This document shows, piece after piece, positions 20,436 to 29,212 of a DNA stretch of 64,000 nt. The stretch's first letter is position 1; each line of letters starts with the position of its first letter. A program made the translations under genes and the position numbers. Origin of the DNA: Blastococcus sp. DSM 46786 (GTDB taxonomy: Bacteria; Actinomycetota; Actinomycetes; Mycobacteriales; Geodermatophilaceae); the NCBI RefSeq assembly GCF_900109665.1, contig NZ_FOAO01000007.1, positions 124,001 through 188,000 of the forward strand, written 5' to 3'. The notes below the pieces were generated by a model that made no database searches, had not been told where the DNA came from, and saw only the letters and a program-made list of their open reading frames with translations.

Positions 20436-21314
20436 CTAGGACGAGGGGTCGCGGTCGGGGTACCGCGCGCGGGCGAGGGCGTAGACCCCGAACGCCGCGA
20501 ACCCGGCCGCGACACCGCCGAGCAGCCACGGCCCGGCGCCCACCCCCGCGATCGCCGTCATCGCGCCGTCCAGGCCGGTCGCGGTGGAGGCGTCGAGCGA
20601 GGTGGCCGCCTGCCACAGCAGGACGCCGACCAGCGCGAAGGCGACGCCCTTCGCCAGGTACCCGATCCGCCCCAGCACCTCGATCGCCGGTTCCCAGCGG
20701 TCGGGGGCCGCGGGCAGGTCGATGTCGCGCATGAAGCCGCCGGTGCAGCCGCGCACGAACGTGTAGATCCCGACGGCGACCACCCCGGCCGCGACCGCGC
20801 CGATGAAGACGGCCCCGCCGGGGATCAGCAGCGTCTCCTCGGTGAGCTCGCGCAGCCGCTCGTCGGCCTCGTACTCGAACCCGAGGGCGAACAGCAGCGC
20901 GGTGAGCCCGAGGACGCCGTACACCGCGCCCTTGGCCAGGCACTTGGCGCAGACGACGGCGGTGCGCACCCGGTGCTCGCCGTCCAGCAGCCCGTGCCAC
21001 CAGAGCAGCACCTCCGCGGCCTGCCAGACGGCCAGCGACAGCATGCCCAGGCCGATCGCGACCAGCAGCAGCCGCCCGCCGGGCCCACCGGCGACCGTGA
21101 GCAGCGCGCCGGTCTGGTCGGGATCGGCGCCGCGCAGCCCCATCGCCATGCGCACCGCGAGCACGGCGATGAGCAGGTGCATCGCCCCGTAGGCGATGAG
21201 GCCGGCGCGGGCGAGGTGGACCAGCACCGGGTGGTCGGTGACCCGGCGGATCCGGACGACGACGTCGTGGAGGCGGTGGGCCAGCGCCCGGACCGAGGGC
21301 GCCGGCGGGCTCAC
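20436..21314 (-). CDS. DUF1206 membrane protein (second of a tandem pair)
   Basis: A 292-residue integral membrane protein with about six hydrophobic segments arranged as three DUF1206 repeats, each of two helices: HLARAGLIAYGAMHLLIAVL, LAKGAVYGVLGLTALLFAL and IGYLAKGVAFALVGVLLWQA start the three units. The function of DUF1206 is unknown. The GTG start overlaps the stop of the upstream paralogue (GTGA), so the two are co-translated. The protein ends in RARYPDRDPSS, almost the same as the RARYPERT end of its neighbour, showing duplication. Confidence 0.85.
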   Translation of the reverse strand: MSPPAPSVRALAHRLHDVVVRIRRVTDHPVLVHLARAGLIAYGAMHLLIAVLAVRMAMGLRGADPDQTGALLTVAGGPGGRLLLVAIGLGMLSLAVWQAAEVLLWWHGLLDGEHRVRTAVVCAKCLAKGAVYGVLGLTALLFALGFEYEADERLRELTEETLLIPGGAVFIGAVAAGVVAVGIYTFVRGCTGGFMRDIDLPAAPDRWEPAIEVLGRIGYLAKGVAFALVGVLLWQAATSLDASTATGLDGAMTAIAGVGAGPWLLGGVAAGFAAFGVYALARARYPDRDPSS

Positions 21315-22150
21315 GTGCGCTCGGGATAGCGCGCGCGGACGAAGCAGTAGGCGCCGAAGGCGGCGATCCCGACGGCGACGAGGGTCAGCAGCACCGGCCC
21401 GGCGGGCGCGGTCAGCAGCGTCTGCAGCGCGCCGTCCAGGCCGGACGCCTTGGCGGGGTCGAACGTGACCGCCGCCCACACGAGCAGCCCGCCGACGAGC
21501 CCGAGCGCGACCCCCTTGGCGGGGAAGCCGACCTGGCCGAGCCGGGTGACCAGCCGCCGGGCGGAGGACGAGCAGTCGCTGAGGTCGATCTCCTTGAGGA
21601 ACTTCTTGGTGACGCCCTTGTGGACGAGGTAGACCGCGACGCCCACGACGACCAGCCCGGCGGCGCCGACCAGCCAGCGGCCGGCGGGCCAGCCGAAGAC
21701 GCCGGCGGCGGCCTGCTGCTGGGACCCGCCGCCGGACTGCCCGCCCCCGGTGGCGAACCGGATCGCGAGCACGGCCAGGGCGGTGTAGACCACCGCCTTG
21801 GCTGCCGCCTTCACGGTCTTCTCCACCGCCGTGGTGCGGGCCTTGCCCGACGCCGACCAGCCGTGCCGCCAGCGGAGGATCTCGGCGGCCTGCCAGAGCG
21901 CCAGCGCGACCAGCCCGATGCCGAGCACCCACAGCAGCGGCTCGCCCAGCGGCTGCTCGGCCAGGGTGGCCAGCGCCCCGGACTGGTCGGCCTGCTCGCC
22001 GGCCCGGCCCCAGGCGAGCTGCAGCGCCAGCCAGGCGATGAGCACGTGCACCAGCCCGTAGGCGACCAGCCCCACGCGGGCCAGGTGCTCCAGGCCGTCG
22101 CTGTTCCCGGCCCGGCCCGCGACCGAGCCGGCCCTGTCCTGCACGCTCAT
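21311..22150 (-). CDS. DUF1206 membrane protein (first of a tandem pair)
   Basis: A 279-residue paralogue of the downstream gene with the same three two-helix repeats (HLARVGLVAYGLVHVLIAWL, AVVYTALAVLAIRFA, VGFPAKGVALGLVGGLLVW). A Gly/Ser/Gln linker (GGGQSGGGSQQQ) lies between repeats 2 and 3. The ATG has GGAGG seven bases upstream. Being first in the pair with the better ribosome-binding site, it likely drives translation of the second. A homo- or hetero-oligomeric membrane complex is plausible but not shown. Confidence 0.85.
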   Translation of the reverse strand: MSVQDRAGSVAGRAGNSDGLEHLARVGLVAYGLVHVLIAWLALQLAWGRAGEQADQSGALATLAEQPLGEPLLWVLGIGLVALALWQAAEILRWRHGWSASGKARTTAVEKTVKAAAKAVVYTALAVLAIRFATGGGQSGGGSQQQAAAGVFGWPAGRWLVGAAGLVVVGVAVYLVHKGVTKKFLKEIDLSDCSSSARRLVTRLGQVGFPAKGVALGLVGGLLVWAAVTFDPAKASGLDGALQTLLTAPAGPVLLTLVAVGIAAFGAYCFVRARYPERT

Positions 22151-22264: not shown

Positions 22265-22924
22265 GTGGCGAACGGAACCGGAATCCTCTCGGCCGGCACG
22301 GTCGGCGCGGCGACCCCCGAGGTCGCCCGGCGCACCTGGCCGCGGTGGCTGGCCCTGGGTGTGGCGATGATCGCGGTCGCGGTCGTCGCCGTCGTCTGGG
22401 ACGCCGGTGCCCGCCTGCTGCTCGGCGGCGTGGGGCTGTTCCTGGCCGCGCGGGGGACGGTCCTGCTCCGGGGTGCCCGCGCCGGCGTCGTCCCCGGCGA
22501 GGTGGCCGGGCGGGCGCGGTCGCTGGGCACGGTGGCCGTGGTGGCCGGGGCCGCGGCCCTCGTCGTCGCCGTCACCTCGGCGTCCCTCGCGGCGGCGGTC
22601 CTCCTCGTCGGCGTCCCCCTGCTGCTCCTCGGCACGTCGCTCGGCCTGCTGGGCCGGGGCGGCGCGGCGAGGCGCGGGGGGCAGGCGCTGCTGGTCTGGT
22701 CGGTGCTGGTCACCGCTCTGCTGGTGGTCACCGGCGTGCTGCAGGGCGCCGACCGGGCCGCCGACGTCGCCACCGTGGTGGCCGCGCTGGTCCTCGCGGT
22801 GCTCGGCGTCCCGCTGCTGATCGGCGCGGCGCACCTGCGCACGGTGGCGGCGGCGCCCGCCCCGGCGCCGGTGGGCTCCGGCTGCGGTGGCTGCGCCTGC
22901 GGCGCGGGCGGCTGCGGGGCCTGA
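22265..22924 (+). CDS. Membrane protein with Cys/Gly-rich C-terminal tail
   Basis: A 219-residue protein with about six hydrophobic segments beginning at WLALGVAMIAVAVVAVVW. The C-terminus ends in a proline/alanine linker and a short cluster GCGGCACGAGGCGA with four cysteines, which could bind a metal or be lipid-modified. No family is recognised. The GTG start follows a GACACT box by six bases, which suggests a leaderless mRNA, and no ribosome-binding site is present. It is divergent from the DUF1206 pair and precedes the SIR2 gene by 29 bases, so it may share that transcript. Confidence 0.6.
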   Translation: MANGTGILSAGTVGAATPEVARRTWPRWLALGVAMIAVAVVAVVWDAGARLLLGGVGLFLAARGTVLLRGARAGVVPGEVAGRARSLGTVAVVAGAAALVVAVTSASLAAAVLLVGVPLLLLGTSLGLLGRGGAARRGGQALLVWSVLVTALLVVTGVLQGADRAADVATVVAALVLAVLGVPLLIGAAHLRTVAAAPAPAPVGSGCGGCACGAGGCGA

Positions 22925-22953: not shown

Positions 22954-24588
22954 ATGGCCCAGCCCGTGAGCGGACACGTCTTCGTCGTCGGGGCGGACCT
23001 GACGCGGCTGTCCTGCGACGACGTCCTGGTGCCCACCGACCGCTCGCTGCGGGTGGCCCGCGGTTGGTGCGCCCTGCTGCCCGACGAGCTGATCACCGAC
23101 CGGCGGGCGGACGGCGACTGCGTCGCGATGTCGTGGACCGGGGACGAGCGGGTGCTCGAGGTGCCCGGGGACGGCGCACGGCGCGCGTGGCTGGTCGACA
23201 CCGTCGACGGGGGCGCCGATGGAACGGGGAGCCGGGGGCGGTCCTGGCTGCTCGACGGGGCCCGCGAGGCGCTGGCCGCCGTCGCCCGGCGCGAGGTGCG
23301 CGAACCGGTGCTCGGGCGCGCACGGCGGTTGGTCGGGCTGCCCGCGCTGGGCACCGGCTGGGGCGGAGCCGCGGGCGAGCGCGGGGCCCTGCTGCAGCAG
23401 CTGCTGCCGGTGCTGCGCGAGGCCGCCGAGGAGCACGGCTTCGACGTCGCCCTGGTGCTGCGCCGGCCCAGCGACCTCGCCGCCGCCCAGCGGGTGCGGC
23501 GCGGCGAGGAGGGCGGCTGGGACCTGCCCGGGCGCCTGCGGGACCTGGCCGTGGACCTGGGCGAGCGCGCCCGCCGGGGTCAGCTGGCGGTCTTCATCGG
23601 CGCGGGGGTCAGCGCCGCCGCGGGGTTGCCGACGTGGGAGCAGCTGGTGCACGAGCTGGCGACCCGGTCGGGCCTGGACGACGCGCTGCGCGTGGGCCTC
23701 GCCCGGCTGCCGGCGCAGGACGCGGCGGCGCTGCTGGCCCGCGAGCTGGGCGCCGACGAGCTGGCGGCGTTCGTCCAGGAGCGGTTCGGGCCCGGCCACT
23801 ACGCCCTCGCGCACGCGCTGATCGCCGATCTGCCGGTGCAGGAGTTCGTGACCACGAACTACGACCCGCTGGTGGAGCTCGCCGCCGGTGACATCGGCCG
23901 GCAGGTGACCGTGCTGCCCCACGACGAGGCCCGGCCGGGGGCGCCGTGGCTGCTCAAGCTGCACGGGGACGCCGCGCACCCGGAGAGCGTGGTGCTGACC
24001 CGCGAGGAGTACCTGCAGTTCGGCAACACCGGTGCGGCGCTGGCGGGGGTGCTGCACTCGCTGCTGCTCACCCGGCACGTGCTGTTCGTGGGCACCTCGA
24101 TGCTGGACGACGACCTGATCCGGATCGCCCACCAGGTGCGCATCGCGCTGCAGACCCAGGGGGCGGGGACGGCACGGCGCACCGGGACCGTGCTCGCGCT
24201 GCAGGAGGACCCGGCCCGCGCCCGCCTGTGGGAGCAGGACGTCGAGACGGTGGCGATGAGCCCCGCGGACGCCTCGCCGGCCGAGGCCGCGCGCCGGCTG
24301 GAGGTGCTGCTCGACCTCATCGGCTGCCTGTCCACGCCGCCCACCGGCTACCTGCTGGACCCTGCCTACCGCGGGCTGCTCGACGAGGAGGAGCGGGTGC
24401 TCGCCGAGGCGCTGGCCGGGGTGGCCGCGGCGCTGCCCGGGGACGCCTCGTCCACGGTCGGGCAGGAGGTCGCCGGCCTGCTGCGCCGGCTGGGCCACGG
24501 CAGCTGCGCCGCCGACGGGGAGGACCCGCCCGTCGGCGTCGCCACCCGGCCCCGCGACGACCGGACGCAGGAGCAGCGGCCGGGCTGA
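22954..24588 (+). CDS. SIR2-domain protein with macrodomain-like N-terminus
   Basis: A 544-residue two-part protein. The C-terminal part (about 195-450) is a SIR2-like NAD-binding domain: FIGAGVSAAAGLPTW near 213, TTNYDPLVE near 299, the catalytic-type His337 in LKLHGDA and FVGTSMLDDDL near 377. The N-terminal part begins HVFVVGADLTRLSCDDVLVP and contains LPALGTGWGG at about 130-139, the pattern of a macrodomain (GDIT-like strand, then a PALGTG-like loop), which in other proteins binds ADP-ribose. Known SIR2 domains of this type are NADases in phage-defence systems or deacylases/ADP-ribosyltransferases. No membrane segment or signal is seen. The role is unproven; see findings. Confidence 0.78.
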   Translation: MAQPVSGHVFVVGADLTRLSCDDVLVPTDRSLRVARGWCALLPDELITDRRADGDCVAMSWTGDERVLEVPGDGARRAWLVDTVDGGADGTGSRGRSWLLDGAREALAAVARREVREPVLGRARRLVGLPALGTGWGGAAGERGALLQQLLPVLREAAEEHGFDVALVLRRPSDLAAAQRVRRGEEGGWDLPGRLRDLAVDLGERARRGQLAVFIGAGVSAAAGLPTWEQLVHELATRSGLDDALRVGLARLPAQDAAALLARELGADELAAFVQERFGPGHYALAHALIADLPVQEFVTTNYDPLVELAAGDIGRQVTVLPHDEARPGAPWLLKLHGDAAHPESVVLTREEYLQFGNTGAALAGVLHSLLLTRHVLFVGTSMLDDDLIRIAHQVRIALQTQGAGTARRTGTVLALQEDPARARLWEQDVETVAMSPADASPAEAARRLEVLLDLIGCLSTPPTGYLLDPAYRGLLDEEERVLAEALAGVAAALPGDASSTVGQEVAGLLRRLGHGSCAADGEDPPVGVATRPRDDRTQEQRPG

Positions 24589-24608: not shown

Positions 24609-25856
24609 ATGGGCACGGCACGGCTCATGCCACGTCTGGAGAACAGCCTGAAACTGCTGTCGAAGGGCTACGCCTGGCTACCCGACGAGCGCCGGCGGGC
24701 CGGCCGGGACGCGGTCGGGGTCCGGCTGGGCGGGATGCCGGCCGTCGGCATCGAGGGCCCCGAGGCGGCCCGCTTCCTCTACGACGAGGACCACGTGCGC
24801 CGCTCGCACGCCATCCCGGAGCCGGTGCAGGGCACGCTCTTCGGCAAGGGTGCGGTGCACACGCTGGACGGCGAGATGCACCGGGTGCGCAAGGCGATGT
24901 TCGTCGCGCTGCTGATGCGCGAGGACGGCATCGCCTCGCTGGTGGAGCGCACGACCGCGGCCTGGGACGCCGCGGTGCCCGAGTGGTCCCGCCGGTCGGA
25001 GATCGTGCTGTTCGACGAGGCGAGCCGGGTGCTGGCCGGTTCCGTGGCCCGGTGGACGGGCGTGCCGGTGCGCGACGAGGAGGTGCCCGGCCTCGCCCGC
25101 GACATGGTGGCCATGGTCGACGGCTTCGCGACCGGTGGGCCCCGCCACTTCCGGGCGCGCCGGGCCCGGGGCCGCCGGGAGCGGTGGCTGCAGCAGCTGG
25201 TCCGGGACGTGCGCAGCGGGCGGGCCCGGGTGGAGGAGGGCTCGGCGGTCGAGGTGGTGTCGCAGCACCGGGACGCCGACGGCGCCCAGCTACCGGCGGA
25301 CGTGGCCGCGGTGGAGCTGGTCAACATCATCCGGCCGACGACGGCGGTCGCCTGGTTCATGGCCTTCTCGGGCCACGCGCTGATCCGCTGGCCGGGCAAC
25401 CGGGAGCGGCTGGCGAGCGGTGACCCGGCATTCGCCGAGGCGTGGGCGCACGAGGTGCGGCGGTTCTACCCGTTCGCCCCGTTCATCGGCGGCCGCTCCC
25501 CGCAACGCAACGAGTTCGCCGGCGAGGAGATCCCCGAGAACGCCATGGTGCTGCTGGACCTGTACGGGCAGAACCACGACCCGGCGCTCTGGGACACCCC
25601 GTACGCCTTCCGCCCCGAGCGGTTCCTCGACCGCAAGATCGGCGAGTGGGAGCTGGTGCCGCAGGGCGGCGGCGACCCGCGCACCAACCACCGCTGCCCG
25701 GGGGAGCAGATCACCGTCGCGCTCATCTCGGCCCTCGCGGTGCGGCTGGCCCGGCTGGAGTGGGAGGCGCCCGAGCAGGACCTGACGATGGCGCTGCACC
25801 GGATCCCGGCCAGGCCGAGGAGCGGCGTGCGGCTGCGGGTGCGCGGCGGGACCTGA
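24609..25856 (+). CDS. CYP152-type cytochrome P450 fatty-acid peroxygenase
   Basis: A 415-residue P450. The heme-ligand Cys363 lies in NHRCPGEQ, preceded by the CYP152 signature LVPQGGGDPRTN. The I-helix has the Arg-Pro pair (Arg242-Pro243, IIRPTTAVAW) that replaces the usual acid-alcohol pair in peroxygenases, and LLDLYGQNHDP and PERF are also in place. With the first ATG, Cys363 and Arg242 fall at the same numbers as in Bacillus subtilis P450-BSbeta, which supports this start; ATG 24627 is an alternative. Such enzymes hydroxylate fatty acids at the alpha or beta carbon with H2O2 and need no reductase, and some decarboxylate them to terminal alkenes. Confidence 0.9.
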   Translation: MGTARLMPRLENSLKLLSKGYAWLPDERRRAGRDAVGVRLGGMPAVGIEGPEAARFLYDEDHVRRSHAIPEPVQGTLFGKGAVHTLDGEMHRVRKAMFVALLMREDGIASLVERTTAAWDAAVPEWSRRSEIVLFDEASRVLAGSVARWTGVPVRDEEVPGLARDMVAMVDGFATGGPRHFRARRARGRRERWLQQLVRDVRSGRARVEEGSAVEVVSQHRDADGAQLPADVAAVELVNIIRPTTAVAWFMAFSGHALIRWPGNRERLASGDPAFAEAWAHEVRRFYPFAPFIGGRSPQRNEFAGEEIPENAMVLLDLYGQNHDPALWDTPYAFRPERFLDRKIGEWELVPQGGGDPRTNHRCPGEQITVALISALAVRLARLEWEAPEQDLTMALHRIPARPRSGVRLRVRGGT

Positions 25857-26089: not shown

Positions 26090-28411
26090 TCAGCGGGGGT
26101 CGAGCCGCTTCAGCTCCGGGGGGAGTTCGCCGGCGTGCACCACGCCCAGTCGCTGGGTGGCCCGGGTGAGCGCCACGTAGAGGTCGTTGTGGCCGCGCAC
26201 GCCCTCGGTGAGGATCCCGCCCGGGTCGGCGACCAGCACCGAGTCGAACTCCAGGCCCTTGCTGCCCTCGGGCGTGAGCACCACCGGCCCGGCGGTCAGG
26301 TCGCCGTCGGCCGAGGCGGCGGGCACCCGGGCGCGGACGGCGTCGATGACGGCGGCCAGCCGGCTGCGCGGCACGACGACGCCGAGGGTGCCCTCCTCGC
26401 GGTCCAGCTCGGCCGCGGCCCCGGCGACGGCCGCGACCAGATGCTCCTCGGCGACCGCGCGGGCCCACGGCTGCTCACCGGTGGAGCGCACCGACCGGGC
26501 CGCCGAGGTGGCGGCCCCGCCCGCGGCCAGCACGTCGGTGGCGACGTCCATGATCTCCGCGGGCGTGCGGTAGTTGACGGTCAGCTCCTCCAGGCGCCAG
26601 CCGCGCATGTCCCGGGGCCCCAGCGCCGGCTCGAGCACCTCGGCCCAGCTGCTGGCACCGGCGGCCGAGCCGGTCTGCGCGACGTCGCCGACCAGGGTCA
26701 TCGACCGGGTGGGGCAGCGGCGCAGCAGCACCCGCCAGGCCATGGCCGAGAGCTCCTGCGCCTCGTCGACGATGACGTGCCCGTAGGTCCAGGTGCGGTC
26801 GGCGGCGGCGCGCTGGGCCGTCGACCGCGAGTCGCCGACCTCCTGCCGCTCGGCCAGGCCCTCGGCGTCGAGGAGGTCGCCGGCGGAGAGCTCCTCGGAC
26901 TCATCCTCGGTCTCCCAGTCGGTCGAGCGGGAGCCGTGCAGCAGGTCGAGGGTCTCCTGGGCGTGGCGCAGCCGGCGCTGCCGCTCCCGGCGGGCGGCGG
27001 CCCGCTCGGCGCTGTCGTCGATGCCGAGCAGCTCGTCGGCCTCCTCGAGGAGGGGCACGTCGGCCGGCGTCCACGGCGCGGACGCCGGCCGCAGCAGCAG
27101 CTCGCGGTCGGCCTCGGGCCACCCGCGGGTCGCGGCCGCCAGCCGGCGGGGGTCGGCGAAGAGGTCGCGCAGCAGGCGCTCGGCGCTCAGCCGGGGCCAC
27201 AGCCGCTCGACCAGGGCGTGCACGGCGGGCTCGGCGGCGACCTCCTGCAGCAGCGCGGCGAGGTCGCCCCGGCCGAGCAGGTTGCCGCCGTCGAGCACGT
27301 TCGCGCCGAGCTTGTCGGCGTACTTGCCGGCGAGCAGGTCGATGACCGCGCGGACGAACGCCGGCCGGGCCTCGTTGTGCAGCCGGGAGACCGCCCGGGC
27401 GCGGCTGCGCGCGCGGGCGGCGTCGGCCTTGGTGAAGCGCAGCGGCAGCCCGTCGACGGTGAGGTTCGCCGGCGCGTCCAGGACGGCCTGCCGGTTGCGG
27501 ACGGCGGTGGCGACGACGTCGACCATCGCCAGCCGCCCCTTGACCTCGGCGACCTCCGGTGCCTCGGCCGCGTGCGCCTGCAGCCCCGGCCGCAGGCCGC
27601 CCATGTCGGTGAGCACCACCCCGGTCTCGCCGAGGGAGGGCAGCACGTCGGCGATGTAGCCGAGGAAGGTGGGGGAGGGCCCGACGACGAGCAGCCCGCT
27701 GCGGGCCAGCCGCTCGCGGTGGGTGTAGAGGAGGTAGGCCGCGCGGTGCAGGGCGACGGCGGTCTTGCCCGTGCCGGGACCGCCCTGCACGACCAGGACG
27801 CCGCGGTGGTCGGCCCGGATGATCCGGTCCTGCTCGGCCTGGATGGTGCGGACGATGTCGTTCATCCGGCCGGTGCGGTTCGCGTTGAGCGCGGCCAGCA
27901 GCACCGACTCGCCGGCCAGCCCGGACCGCTGCGCGAGGTCCGGGTCGGAGAGGTCGAGGGTCTCGTCGGTGACGCCGACGACGGTGCGGCCGCGGGTGCG
28001 GATGTGCCGGCGGCGGCGCACGCCGAGGTCGTGCAGGGGCGTGGCGGTGTAGAAGGGCTGGGCCGCGGGGGCGCGCCAGTCGACGAGCAGCGGCTCCTCG
28101 CCGCCGTCCTCCGCGAAGAGCCCGATGCGGCCGATGTACCGGGGGACGTCGACGTCGTGCCGGTCGAGCCGGCCGAAGCACAGCCCGCTGTCGGCGGCGT
28201 CCAGCGCGACGATCCGCTGGGAGTGCAGCTCGACCGCAGCCTCGCGCTCCCCGACGGCCTGCGGGTTGTGCGGCACGGTGGCCAGGGCCTCGTCGAGCCG
28301 GGCGACGGTGCGGGCGCGGACCTCGTCGAGCCGGCGGTGCAACACGCTGACGTAGGCCTGCTCGGCCGCGATCCCGTCGTCGGGGGACCCGGTCGCACGA
28401 ACTGTCGTCAC
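26090..28411 (-). CDS. HelD/HelR-like RNA polymerase-associated helicase
   Basis: A 773-residue superfamily 1 ATPase of the UvrD/Rep-like class. The N-terminal 190 residues are a coiled-coil arm (EQAYVSVLHRRLDEVRARTV) followed by a small barrel-like region (GRLDRHDVDVPRYIGRIG). Walker A VVQGGPGTGKTAVALHRAA is near 207-225, DEAQELSAMAWR near 549 and a C-terminal motif VALTRATQRL at the end. This arrangement matches HelD, which releases stalled RNA polymerase, and its actinomycete form HelR, which also protects against rifampicin. I see no rifampicin-associated element in the promoter. The start is GTG 28409-28411. It is divergent from a NUDIX gene, with a palindrome between. Confidence 0.85.
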   Translation of the reverse strand: MTTVRATGSPDDGIAAEQAYVSVLHRRLDEVRARTVARLDEALATVPHNPQAVGEREAAVELHSQRIVALDAADSGLCFGRLDRHDVDVPRYIGRIGLFAEDGGEEPLLVDWRAPAAQPFYTATPLHDLGVRRRRHIRTRGRTVVGVTDETLDLSDPDLAQRSGLAGESVLLAALNANRTGRMNDIVRTIQAEQDRIIRADHRGVLVVQGGPGTGKTAVALHRAAYLLYTHRERLARSGLLVVGPSPTFLGYIADVLPSLGETGVVLTDMGGLRPGLQAHAAEAPEVAEVKGRLAMVDVVATAVRNRQAVLDAPANLTVDGLPLRFTKADAARARSRARAVSRLHNEARPAFVRAVIDLLAGKYADKLGANVLDGGNLLGRGDLAALLQEVAAEPAVHALVERLWPRLSAERLLRDLFADPRRLAAATRGWPEADRELLLRPASAPWTPADVPLLEEADELLGIDDSAERAAARRERQRRLRHAQETLDLLHGSRSTDWETEDESEELSAGDLLDAEGLAERQEVGDSRSTAQRAAADRTWTYGHVIVDEAQELSAMAWRVLLRRCPTRSMTLVGDVAQTGSAAGASSWAEVLEPALGPRDMRGWRLEELTVNYRTPAEIMDVATDVLAAGGAATSAARSVRSTGEQPWARAVAEEHLVAAVAGAAAELDREEGTLGVVVPRSRLAAVIDAVRARVPAASADGDLTAGPVVLTPEGSKGLEFDSVLVADPGGILTEGVRGHNDLYVALTRATQRLGVVHAGELPPELKRLDPR

Positions 28412-28446
28412 AACCTCTTCGCTCTCTGGTGGTGAGGGGAGTGCGC

Positions 28447-28465
28447 ACGGCACGCCGCGTGCCGT
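28447..28465. promoter_or_regulatory. Perfect 19-bp palindrome between helicase and NUDIX genes
   Basis: ACGGCACGC-C-GCGTGCCGT has nine perfect pairs around one central base and lies 36 bases upstream of the helicase start and 73 upstream of the NUDIX start. The size and symmetry fit a dimeric repressor site. It is itself flanked by GTGCGCA (28441-28447) and TGCGCAC (28485-28491), so it could instead be another palindromic repeat. Confidence 0.4.
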
Positions 28466-28524
28466 TCCGGGCAGCTGCTCATTCTGCGCACGCGGACCCT
28501 GCGCGGGCGCCGTGCCTCGCGCAC

Positions 28525-28530
28525 TAGCGT
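28525..28530 (+). promoter_or_regulatory. -10 box of a leaderless NUDIX transcript
   Basis: TAGCGT ends seven bases before the GTG at 28538, so transcription would start at the start codon. No ribosome-binding site precedes the GTG, consistent with leaderless translation. Confidence 0.5.
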
Positions 28531-28537
28531 CCTGCGT

Positions 28538-29212
28538 GTGACGCAGATTCCCGGCATCGACGTCCCGGACGCCCGCGGCCGCACCGGCCTGGACCGGGTG
28601 GGGCGGGACCTCAGCGGCAACCCGCGGGTGCGCATCACCGACGTGGAGCTCGTGGCGAGCGCCTGGCACGTGCTGCGCCGGACCACCTTCGAGTACCGCC
28701 GCGCGGACGGCACCTGGGTGACCGAGGCGCGGGAGACCTACGACCGCGGCAACGGGGCGACCATCCTGCTGCACGACGTCGCCCGCGGGACCGTCCTGCT
28801 CTCCCGGCAGTTCCGCTTCCCGGTGTACGTGAACGGCCACCCCGACGGCATGCTCCTCGAGGCCGCCGCCGGGCTGCTCGACGAGGACGACGCCGAGACC
28901 GCCATCCGCCGCGAGGCCGAGGAGGAGCTCGGGGTGACGGTGGGCGAGCTCCAGCACGTGTTCGACGTCTGGATGAGCCCCGGCTCGGTCACCGAGCGGC
29001 TGCACTTCTACGCCGCCCCCTACACGGCGGCCGACCGCACGGCCGGCGGCGGCGGGTTGGCCGAGGAGGGGGAGGACATCGAGGTGGTGGAGCTGCCGTT
29101 CGACGAAGCGCTGCGGATGGTGGCCGACGGCCGGATCGCCGACGCGAAGACGATCATGCTGCTGCAGTGGGCGGCGCTGCAGGGCCCGTTCGCCGCAGGG
29201 GCGCGCCGGTAG
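28538..29212 (+). CDS. NUDIX hydrolase, NudK-like (GDP-mannose/ADP-ribose class)
   Basis: A 224-residue NUDIX protein. The Nudix box lies near 110-131 in [20 protein letters not shown], with the REAEEE core that binds Mg. The preceding [20 protein letters not shown] and the box form GLLDEDD resemble E. coli NudK, which hydrolyses GDP-mannose, and related ADP-sugar pyrophosphatases. It is divergent from the HelD-like gene and appears to be transcribed as a leaderless mRNA. The SIR2/macrodomain-like protein four kilobases away also concerns ADP-ribose chemistry, but no link is shown. Confidence 0.83.

Follow-up and report, generated by a model that had tools for sequence, protein, structure and literature searches.

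The gene analysed here encodes a predicted macrodomain joined to a SIR2_2-type domain, and this macro-SIR2 fusion is, as judged by sequence comparison, a stable actinobacterial family. Sequence and structural models support both domain families, the intact catalytic-type residues, the conserved fusion and, in relatives, a linkage to ADP-ribose genes. The copy in the window (the whole stretch of DNA that was analysed, 64,000 nucleotides) is a derived Geodermatophilaceae lineage, and it forms a presence/absence cassette flanked on one side by a gene for a Cys-tailed membrane protein and on the other by one for a CYP152 peroxygenase. Since its relatives are often found next to other ADP-ribose-handling genes, a role of macro-SIR2 as a switch in stress or defence seems probable. 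Coordinates are collected in Table 1, where conservation is given for the alignment rows lying outside the core (window-type) clade.

Table 1. The macro-SIR2 gene, its domains and motifs, and the flanking genes, in window coordinates
Feature	Position	Strand	Basis or remark
Macro-SIR2 fusion gene	22954..24588	+	ATG start, 544 aa, TGA stop, single open frame
N-terminal macrodomain, residues ~8-190	22975..23523	+	Family profile, AF2 model, Foldseek, VIA-align
GADLT, first-strand motif, G13-T17	22990..23004	+	D15 kept in 13/23 non-core rows
LPALGTGWGG, phosphate-loop pattern, L129-G138	23338..23367	+	G133, G138 kept in 23/23 non-core rows
SIR2_2/ThsA-type domain, residues ~205-460	23566..24333	+	Pfam SIR2_2, PADLOC ThsA, PDB ThsA
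GAGVS, NAD-binding-type motif, G216-S220	23599..23613	+	G216, G218 kept in 23/23 non-core rows
TTNYD, catalytic-type Asn302, T300-D304	23851..23865	+	N302 kept in 23/23 non-core rows
KLHGD, catalytic-type His337, K335-D339	23956..23970	+	H337 kept in 22/23 non-core rows
GTSMLDDD, C-terminal SIR2 motif, G380-D387	24091..24114	+	G380, D385 kept in 23/23 non-core rows
Membrane-protein-like gene, C-x2-C-x-C tail	22265..22924	+	Neighbour, 29 bp upstream of macro-SIR2
CYP152-type fatty-acid peroxygenase gene (cytochrome P450)	24609..25856	+	Neighbour, ~20 bp downstream of macro-SIR2

Domain composition of the fusion protein

The N-terminal half of the window protein has no Pfam family above cut-off, and Pfam Macro was unmatched by all 26 diverse family members scanned singly. 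We built a profile from the N-domains of the same 26 members and searched it against the PDB. The first five matches were macroH2A chains: 7ny6 (macroH2A1.1; the best, E 1.5e-8), 1yd9 (8.7e-5), 1zr3 (2e-4) and the carrier fusions 5iit (3.3e-4) and 7d3y (6.6e-4). TTHA0132 (2dx6) came sixth with E 0.0098, and the remaining eight matches (E 0.22-1.4) were unrelated chains. An AF2 model of residues 4-192, made from 19 sequences, had a pLDDT of 68.8 and a pTM of 0.69. Foldseek matched this model to YmdB, the VEEV macrodomain with ADP-ribose, macroH2A1.1 and MacroD2 at a probability of about 1.00, with E below 0.001 in one row only, a macroH2A carrier fusion. The 50 matches listed by VIA-align were macrodomain entries (some under carrier-fusion titles) and designed serine hydrolases, most of which presumably use a macro scaffold; among these matches Z ranged from 8.8 to 10.3 and rmsd from 3.4 to 4.2, a Z near 10 being moderate by the tool's own note. 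Sequence profile and modelled fold agree independently, and the assignment of the N-terminal half to the macrodomains, made in the first-pass annotation, holds on both; an alternative fold was not obtained. TM-macro ThsA structures were absent among the listed profile, Foldseek and VIA-align matches, an absence that carries no evidential weight.

The two motifs behind that earlier assignment, a GDxT-like first strand and the LPALGTGWGG pattern, were both located, with the loop glycines kept throughout (Table 1). Several relatives show a textbook GDLT as their first-strand motif, and D15 of the window protein is aligned with the Asp of the macroH2A 'ADI'. As D15 is kept in little more than half of the non-core rows, some members of the family may have a different ligand; D22 is kept in 22 of the 23. 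The phosphate loop falls in or beside a stretch of the N-domain model with pLDDT below 50. 'NAAN' is a motif of MacroD-type or hydrolase macrodomains, and its position reads 'VPTD' in the window protein, which would suggest a reader more than an eraser. ADP-ribose binding by the macro half is a prediction from sequence.

Profile searches of the C-terminal half, as proposed in the first-pass annotation, gave a SIR2_2/ThsA-type domain. Pfam SIR2_2 matched residues 297-427 (E 8e-27; 94.5 bits against a cut-off of 24.5). The best PADLOC model was ThsA (residues 205-402, E 7e-31), the match spanning positions 16-215 of 478 in the profile, which is the SIR2 part of the model only. In a phmmer search of the PDB, the best matches were the ThsA structures 7uxt (5.3e-19) and 8wc0 (2.7e-15), followed by KomC and DSR2 chains among others. 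NCBIfam gave only matches far under cut-off, the deacylase model, whose cut-off is 243, scoring 12 bits. A full SIR2 motif set had been claimed for this half, and GAGVS, TTNYD, KLHGD (with His337) and GTSMLDDD were all found. D304, E308, K335 and G338 are also kept in 23 of 23 non-core rows, and N302 and H337 are invariant in 19 core rows. The assignment to the SIR2_2 type (ThsA, DSR2, KomC), with intact catalytic-type residues, therefore holds at the sequence level. None of the five cysteines of the window protein (21, 39, 56, 458 and 518) lies in a CxxC, so that the zinc-binding CxxC pattern is absent; the available part of PMC12700824 describes the zinc-binding module as absent from FAM118 and ThsA as well. 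Residues 428-544 matched no Pfam family at E up to 10, SLOG/STALD included.

The full-length AF2 model (19 close sequences, window included) had a pLDDT of 42.7, too low to show domain packing or gating. Purifying selection acts on both halves. By simple Nei-Gojobori estimates, dN/dS between the window gene and seven Blastococcus relatives was 0.12-0.26 for the SIR2 half and 0.19-0.32 for the macro half; the medians over 18 relatives were 0.26 and 0.42, respectively, and 0.59 for the tail (461-544).

Spread of the fusion and the Geodermatophilaceae cassette

Related loci include 20 named ones, in Blastococcus, Geodermatophilus and one Frankiales MAG, at 72-93% identity over the best segment; a full-length orthologue, 93% identical, is present in Blastococcus sp. 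MG754426. At the order level, 38 of 298 genomes have a match at E <= 1e-20, some of them forming a divergent group with 35-45% identity, and at the phylum level 7 of 396 match at E <= 1e-30. The N-domain profile matches 14 of 394 class genomes; SIR2 stands directly behind the macrodomain in 13 of them, and in the fourteenth (G684) the contig end interrupts the gene. This contig end apart, no case of this macrodomain type lacking SIR2 was met in the class sample. In a quick ML tree of 53 rows, the 37 core rows form one clade with a support of 100, and the non-core rows sit on long branches whose branching order is unsure. The fusion is not confined to a few genomes, and its motif residues N302, H337, G133 and G138 are conserved as listed in Table 1. 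The macro-SIR2 frame is split in L019 and L021 (Blastococcus sp. KM273128 and Candidatus Blastococcus massiliensis), by decay or draft error.

Mobile-element collections were also searched. Fifteen loci in a viral contig collection matched, all from query residue 197 or later. None of 135 plasmid records covers 80% of the query, and the 30 plasmid matches listed of these 135 begin at residue 165 or later; the phage collection gave one record, matching residues 192-385. These match positions indicate that the SIR2 half alone is seen in those collections.

The source genome of the window has 4.59 Mb in 47 contigs, the window lying on the contig labelled C14. A Cys-tailed membrane protein had been noted 29 bases upstream of macro-SIR2; the gap is indeed 29 bases, and the C-x2-C-x-C tail (22883-22921; CGGCACGAGGCGA) is kept in 13/13 named loci examined, these being 13 of the 15 named loci where the membrane gene was found. 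No Pfam family was found for this gene. The P450 was identified by PDB matches to P450 152A1 and fatty-acid peroxygenases at E about 1e-101. Beyond the P450, a UvrD-type helicase (-) and a NUDIX hydrolase (+) occupy 26093-29212 of the window; the helicase was matched in 22 loci and the NUDIX in 3. Two adjacent DUF1206 membrane proteins, with three repeats each, lie at 20436-22150 (-).

Of the 48 core loci (some genomes counted twice), 44 show a same-strand P450 within the fetched stretch, and BLAST found the membrane gene in 34. Across 57 family genomes, the membrane gene is present in 47, the P450 in 34 and macro-SIR2 of any type in 28. The membrane protein was considered as a dedicated partner and rejected, since it is more widespread than macro-SIR2 and is present without it too. 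Core-type macro-SIR2 occurs in 24 of the 57, and in 22 of these 24 it stands between the membrane gene and the P450 on a single contig, the two flanks being 1.6-3.5 kb apart. Ten genomes have both flanks on one contig without macro-SIR2. Five of these are near-seamless empty sites with the flanks 28-74 bp apart (G213, G1009, G1019, G1021 and G120; junctions read); the remaining five have gaps of 390 bp (two genomes), 1189 bp (two genomes) and 3084 bp (one genome). As the core clade follows genera, repeated loss of the cassette is the simpler reading of this pattern; gain is also possible. Of 23 genomes from two genera (g1 and g4), 22 retain the core gene at one constant site, which sets it apart from most mobile defence genes.

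ADP-ribose genes near divergent relatives

The genes around divergent members were first inspected by eye and then checked against Pfam. Pfam found near these relatives an ADP-ribosylglycohydrolase (ARG) fused to a dual-specificity phosphatase, ARPP-1, a NUDIX protein with an NrtR winged helix, and NERD with a UvrD-type helicase. Local HMMs made from the island genes served to search 25 non-core loci, each with a flank of ~8 kb or less; L095 and L096, which repeat L054 and L057, were left out of this count. ARG (PF03747) is present in 12 of the 25 (L052, L053, where it is broken, L055-L059, L061, L086, L114, L115 and L117), and all 12 have a NrtR-like gene. ARPP-1 occurs in eight of these 12 (L052, L053, L055, L056, L058, L059, L086 and L114), as does NERD (L052, L055, L056, L057, L058, L061, L086 and L114). 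Pfam confirms ARG and NrtR in L086, L114, L115 and L117, and ARPP-1 in L086 and L114; the NrtR-like gene of L058 has a Pfam NUDIX match and no NrtR_WHD match.

ARG was not found in the stretch read at the other 13 loci (L054, L060, L062, L063, L087-L089, L112, L113, L116, L118, L119 and L120, which reaches the contig end). It lies 14.6 kb from macro-SIR2 in L054 and 42 kb in L060, and L053 has an intact ARG about 18 kb away in addition to the broken one nearby. L087-L089 belong to family f30 (same phylum, other class), where macro-SIR2 stands alone at a shared locus beside an SDR-like gene (by eye).

ARG genes are scarce (present in 15 of 17 genomes, with at most two matches each), and their nearness to macro-SIR2 is therefore unlikely to arise by chance. 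With the f30 loci and L120 set aside, chance nearness was estimated at ~0.45% per locus; for the observed 12/21 this gives P about 2e-23, a rough value that ignores relatedness. Island gene order and spacing vary between lineages, which argues against a single inherited block. ARPP-1 was found in 17 of 298 order genomes, 16 of them above cut-off. Since five ARPP-1 islands (L090-L094; ARG/ARPP-1/NrtR) are without macro-SIR2, the fusion is an optional module of the island. The borders of L090 and L091 carry ORFs that by eye resemble a short-patch-repair endonuclease, L091 also having a DNA methylase-like one, as in defence islands.

None of ARG, NrtR, ARPP-1 and NERD was found in the 11 core loci searched, of 20 named. 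The macro-SIR2 of the window has no linked ARG, NrtR or ARPP-1: its genome has one ARG match on contig C7 and one NrtR_WHD match on C12, and ARPP-1 was not found in it. Linkage to ADP-ribose genes was seen for the relatives, but not for the window copy.

Proposed mechanism, known systems and alternative readings

On the most likely reading, for which the chances appear evenly balanced from sequence and models, macro-SIR2 is a single-polypeptide sensor-effector, in which an ADP-ribose-reading macrodomain would gate a SIR2_2-type NAD+ glycohydrolase. The macrodomain would bind ADP-ribose or a close derivative, either released from ADP-ribosylated molecules or synthesized by another enzyme, and would thereby control the C-terminal SIR2 part. 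With the ligand present, the SIR2 part would hydrolyse NAD+, and its product ADP-ribose could in turn influence the macrodomain. Under attack by phages or another stress, the cell would then lose NAD+ and stop growing. In the island relatives, ADP-ribose may be signal, product and substrate in a circuit with NrtR, ARG and ARPP-1. NADase activity, ligand binding, gating and the biological role are what we infer in this scheme. In the known SIR2 immune NADases, activation comes, to our knowledge, from a SLOG domain (ThsA) or from other proteins, and a macrodomain-gated NADase would be a direct product-or-damage sensor within one chain. In the available part of PMC9503650, macroH2A is given as a version possibly sensing ADP-ribose derivatives instead of acting on them.

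Two variants of ThsA, SIR2-SLOG and TM-macro, are reported in the accessible text of PMC11204291. Like the ThsA of type I Thoeris, macro-SIR2 joins a SIR2_2-type domain to the kind of domain that reads ADP-ribose-type nucleotides; unlike it, the window protein has a macrodomain as its putative sensor, placed N-terminally, and neither a C-terminal SLOG family nor, in its genome, a ThsB was found. TM-macro ThsA likewise carries a macrodomain within the effector protein, with nucleotide sensing proposed (PMC11204291, as far as available), but its effector is a transmembrane part instead of a SIR2 enzyme, and no TIR partner was found for macro-SIR2. The macrodomain of the window protein begins at about residue 8 and SIR2 comes next, which leaves little room for a transmembrane part of the TM-macro style.

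GcvH-L and LplA2 are neighbours of SirTM-macro systems. These systems, from bacteria and fungi, resemble the fusion in having a sirtuin and a macrodomain side by side; they differ in being encoded by two genes, according to the portion of PMC9503650 at hand, whereas here the two are fused and the sirtuin is SIR2_2 by Pfam. Section 3.8 of that paper describes ARG systems with NrtR-like regulators, a phosphatase and ARPP, and with optional Macro and NADAR genes; these were chosen for the absence of coupled ARTs or sirtuins, and regulators related to NrtR sense ADP-ribose. The macro-SIR2 relatives resemble these ARG-centred systems in adjoining ARG-phosphatase, ARPP-1, NrtR and NERD-helicase genes, but macro-SIR2 is coupled in the relatives, and the window copy lies outside such islands. 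'Macro' is named among the extra domains of SIR2_2 proteins in a FAM118 sirtuin tree (PMC12700824, legend of Extended Data Fig. 2). These proteins have the same domain pair, although it is given as a label only, with no family, neighbourhood or function in the available text. The SIR2-Macro architecture is therefore already noted in print. The first-pass annotation had named the gene the best candidate in the window for an undescribed NAD or ADP-ribose-based system; this is borne out in part, since relatives are linked to ADP-ribose genes and the window copy is not. No description of the macro-SIR2 family or of its ARG linkage was found in open-licence PMC papers.

The evidence on ARG and on the flanking genes may also be read differently. 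The SIR2 half could ADP-ribosylate a target in a SirTM-like manner, with the macrodomain reading or removing the mark and the island ARG as eraser, which we consider unlikely. The half is SIR2_2/ThsA and not of the deacylase family (NCBIfam), and 'VPTD' stands in place of the MacroD-type 'NAAN'; on the other hand, ARG is an ADP-ribosyl eraser family found near the relatives, and Sirtuin-Macro pairs with a protein-ADP-ribosylating sirtuin are described in the available part of PMC9503650. It is likewise unlikely, in our estimate, that the protein is a housekeeping or stress enzyme of Geodermatophilaceae, serving NAD/ADP-ribose homeostasis tied to CYP152 and the membrane protein under redox or peroxide stress, with no anti-phage role. 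The same-strand P450 of most core loci would fit, as would the near-constant presence in g1 and g4 and a core clade that follows genera; against it, the P450 and the membrane gene manage without macro-SIR2 at the five near-seamless empty sites, and the relatives sit in variable islands.

A Thoeris-like effector answering a TIR-made messenger, the macrodomain replacing the SLOG of ThsA, seems very improbable to us, even though the SIR2 half is closest to ThsA and TM-macro ThsA binds ADP-ribose and IAD through its macrodomain (PMC11204291, available part). The genome of the window has no match to TIR_2 (PF13676) or ThsB_TIR (PF08937), and none of 17 genomes has such a match on the macro-SIR2 contig at a distance of 100 kb or less; the TIR_2 matches of G057, G229, G262 and G385 are on contigs other than that of macro-SIR2, where the distance is unmeasurable. 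A Thoeris partner for macro-SIR2 was thus sought with both families and not found.

The sensor-effector reading can be extended tentatively, though the extension is unlikely to be right as a whole: macro-SIR2 would be an undescribed class of ADP-ribose-gated NADases and the missing NAD-consuming effector of the ARG/ARPP/NrtR systems. ADP-ribose freed by ARG or a phage enzyme would lift NrtR repression and activate macro-SIR2, whose product would reinforce the ADP-ribose signal, and the Geodermatophilaceae lineage would have split off as a stand-alone switch beside the peroxygenase. Should the ARG linkage prove functional, it would provide the NAD-consuming enzyme whose absence was a selection criterion for the published ARG systems, and would shift the proposed role of these systems from repair alone to repair plus shutdown.

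The genome of the window also encodes a second SIR2-like protein (L064:8967-11686, on contig C15), 32% identical to residues 208-489 of the macro-SIR2 protein. This contig is a small one, and an uncharacterised ORF lies immediately upstream of the gene.
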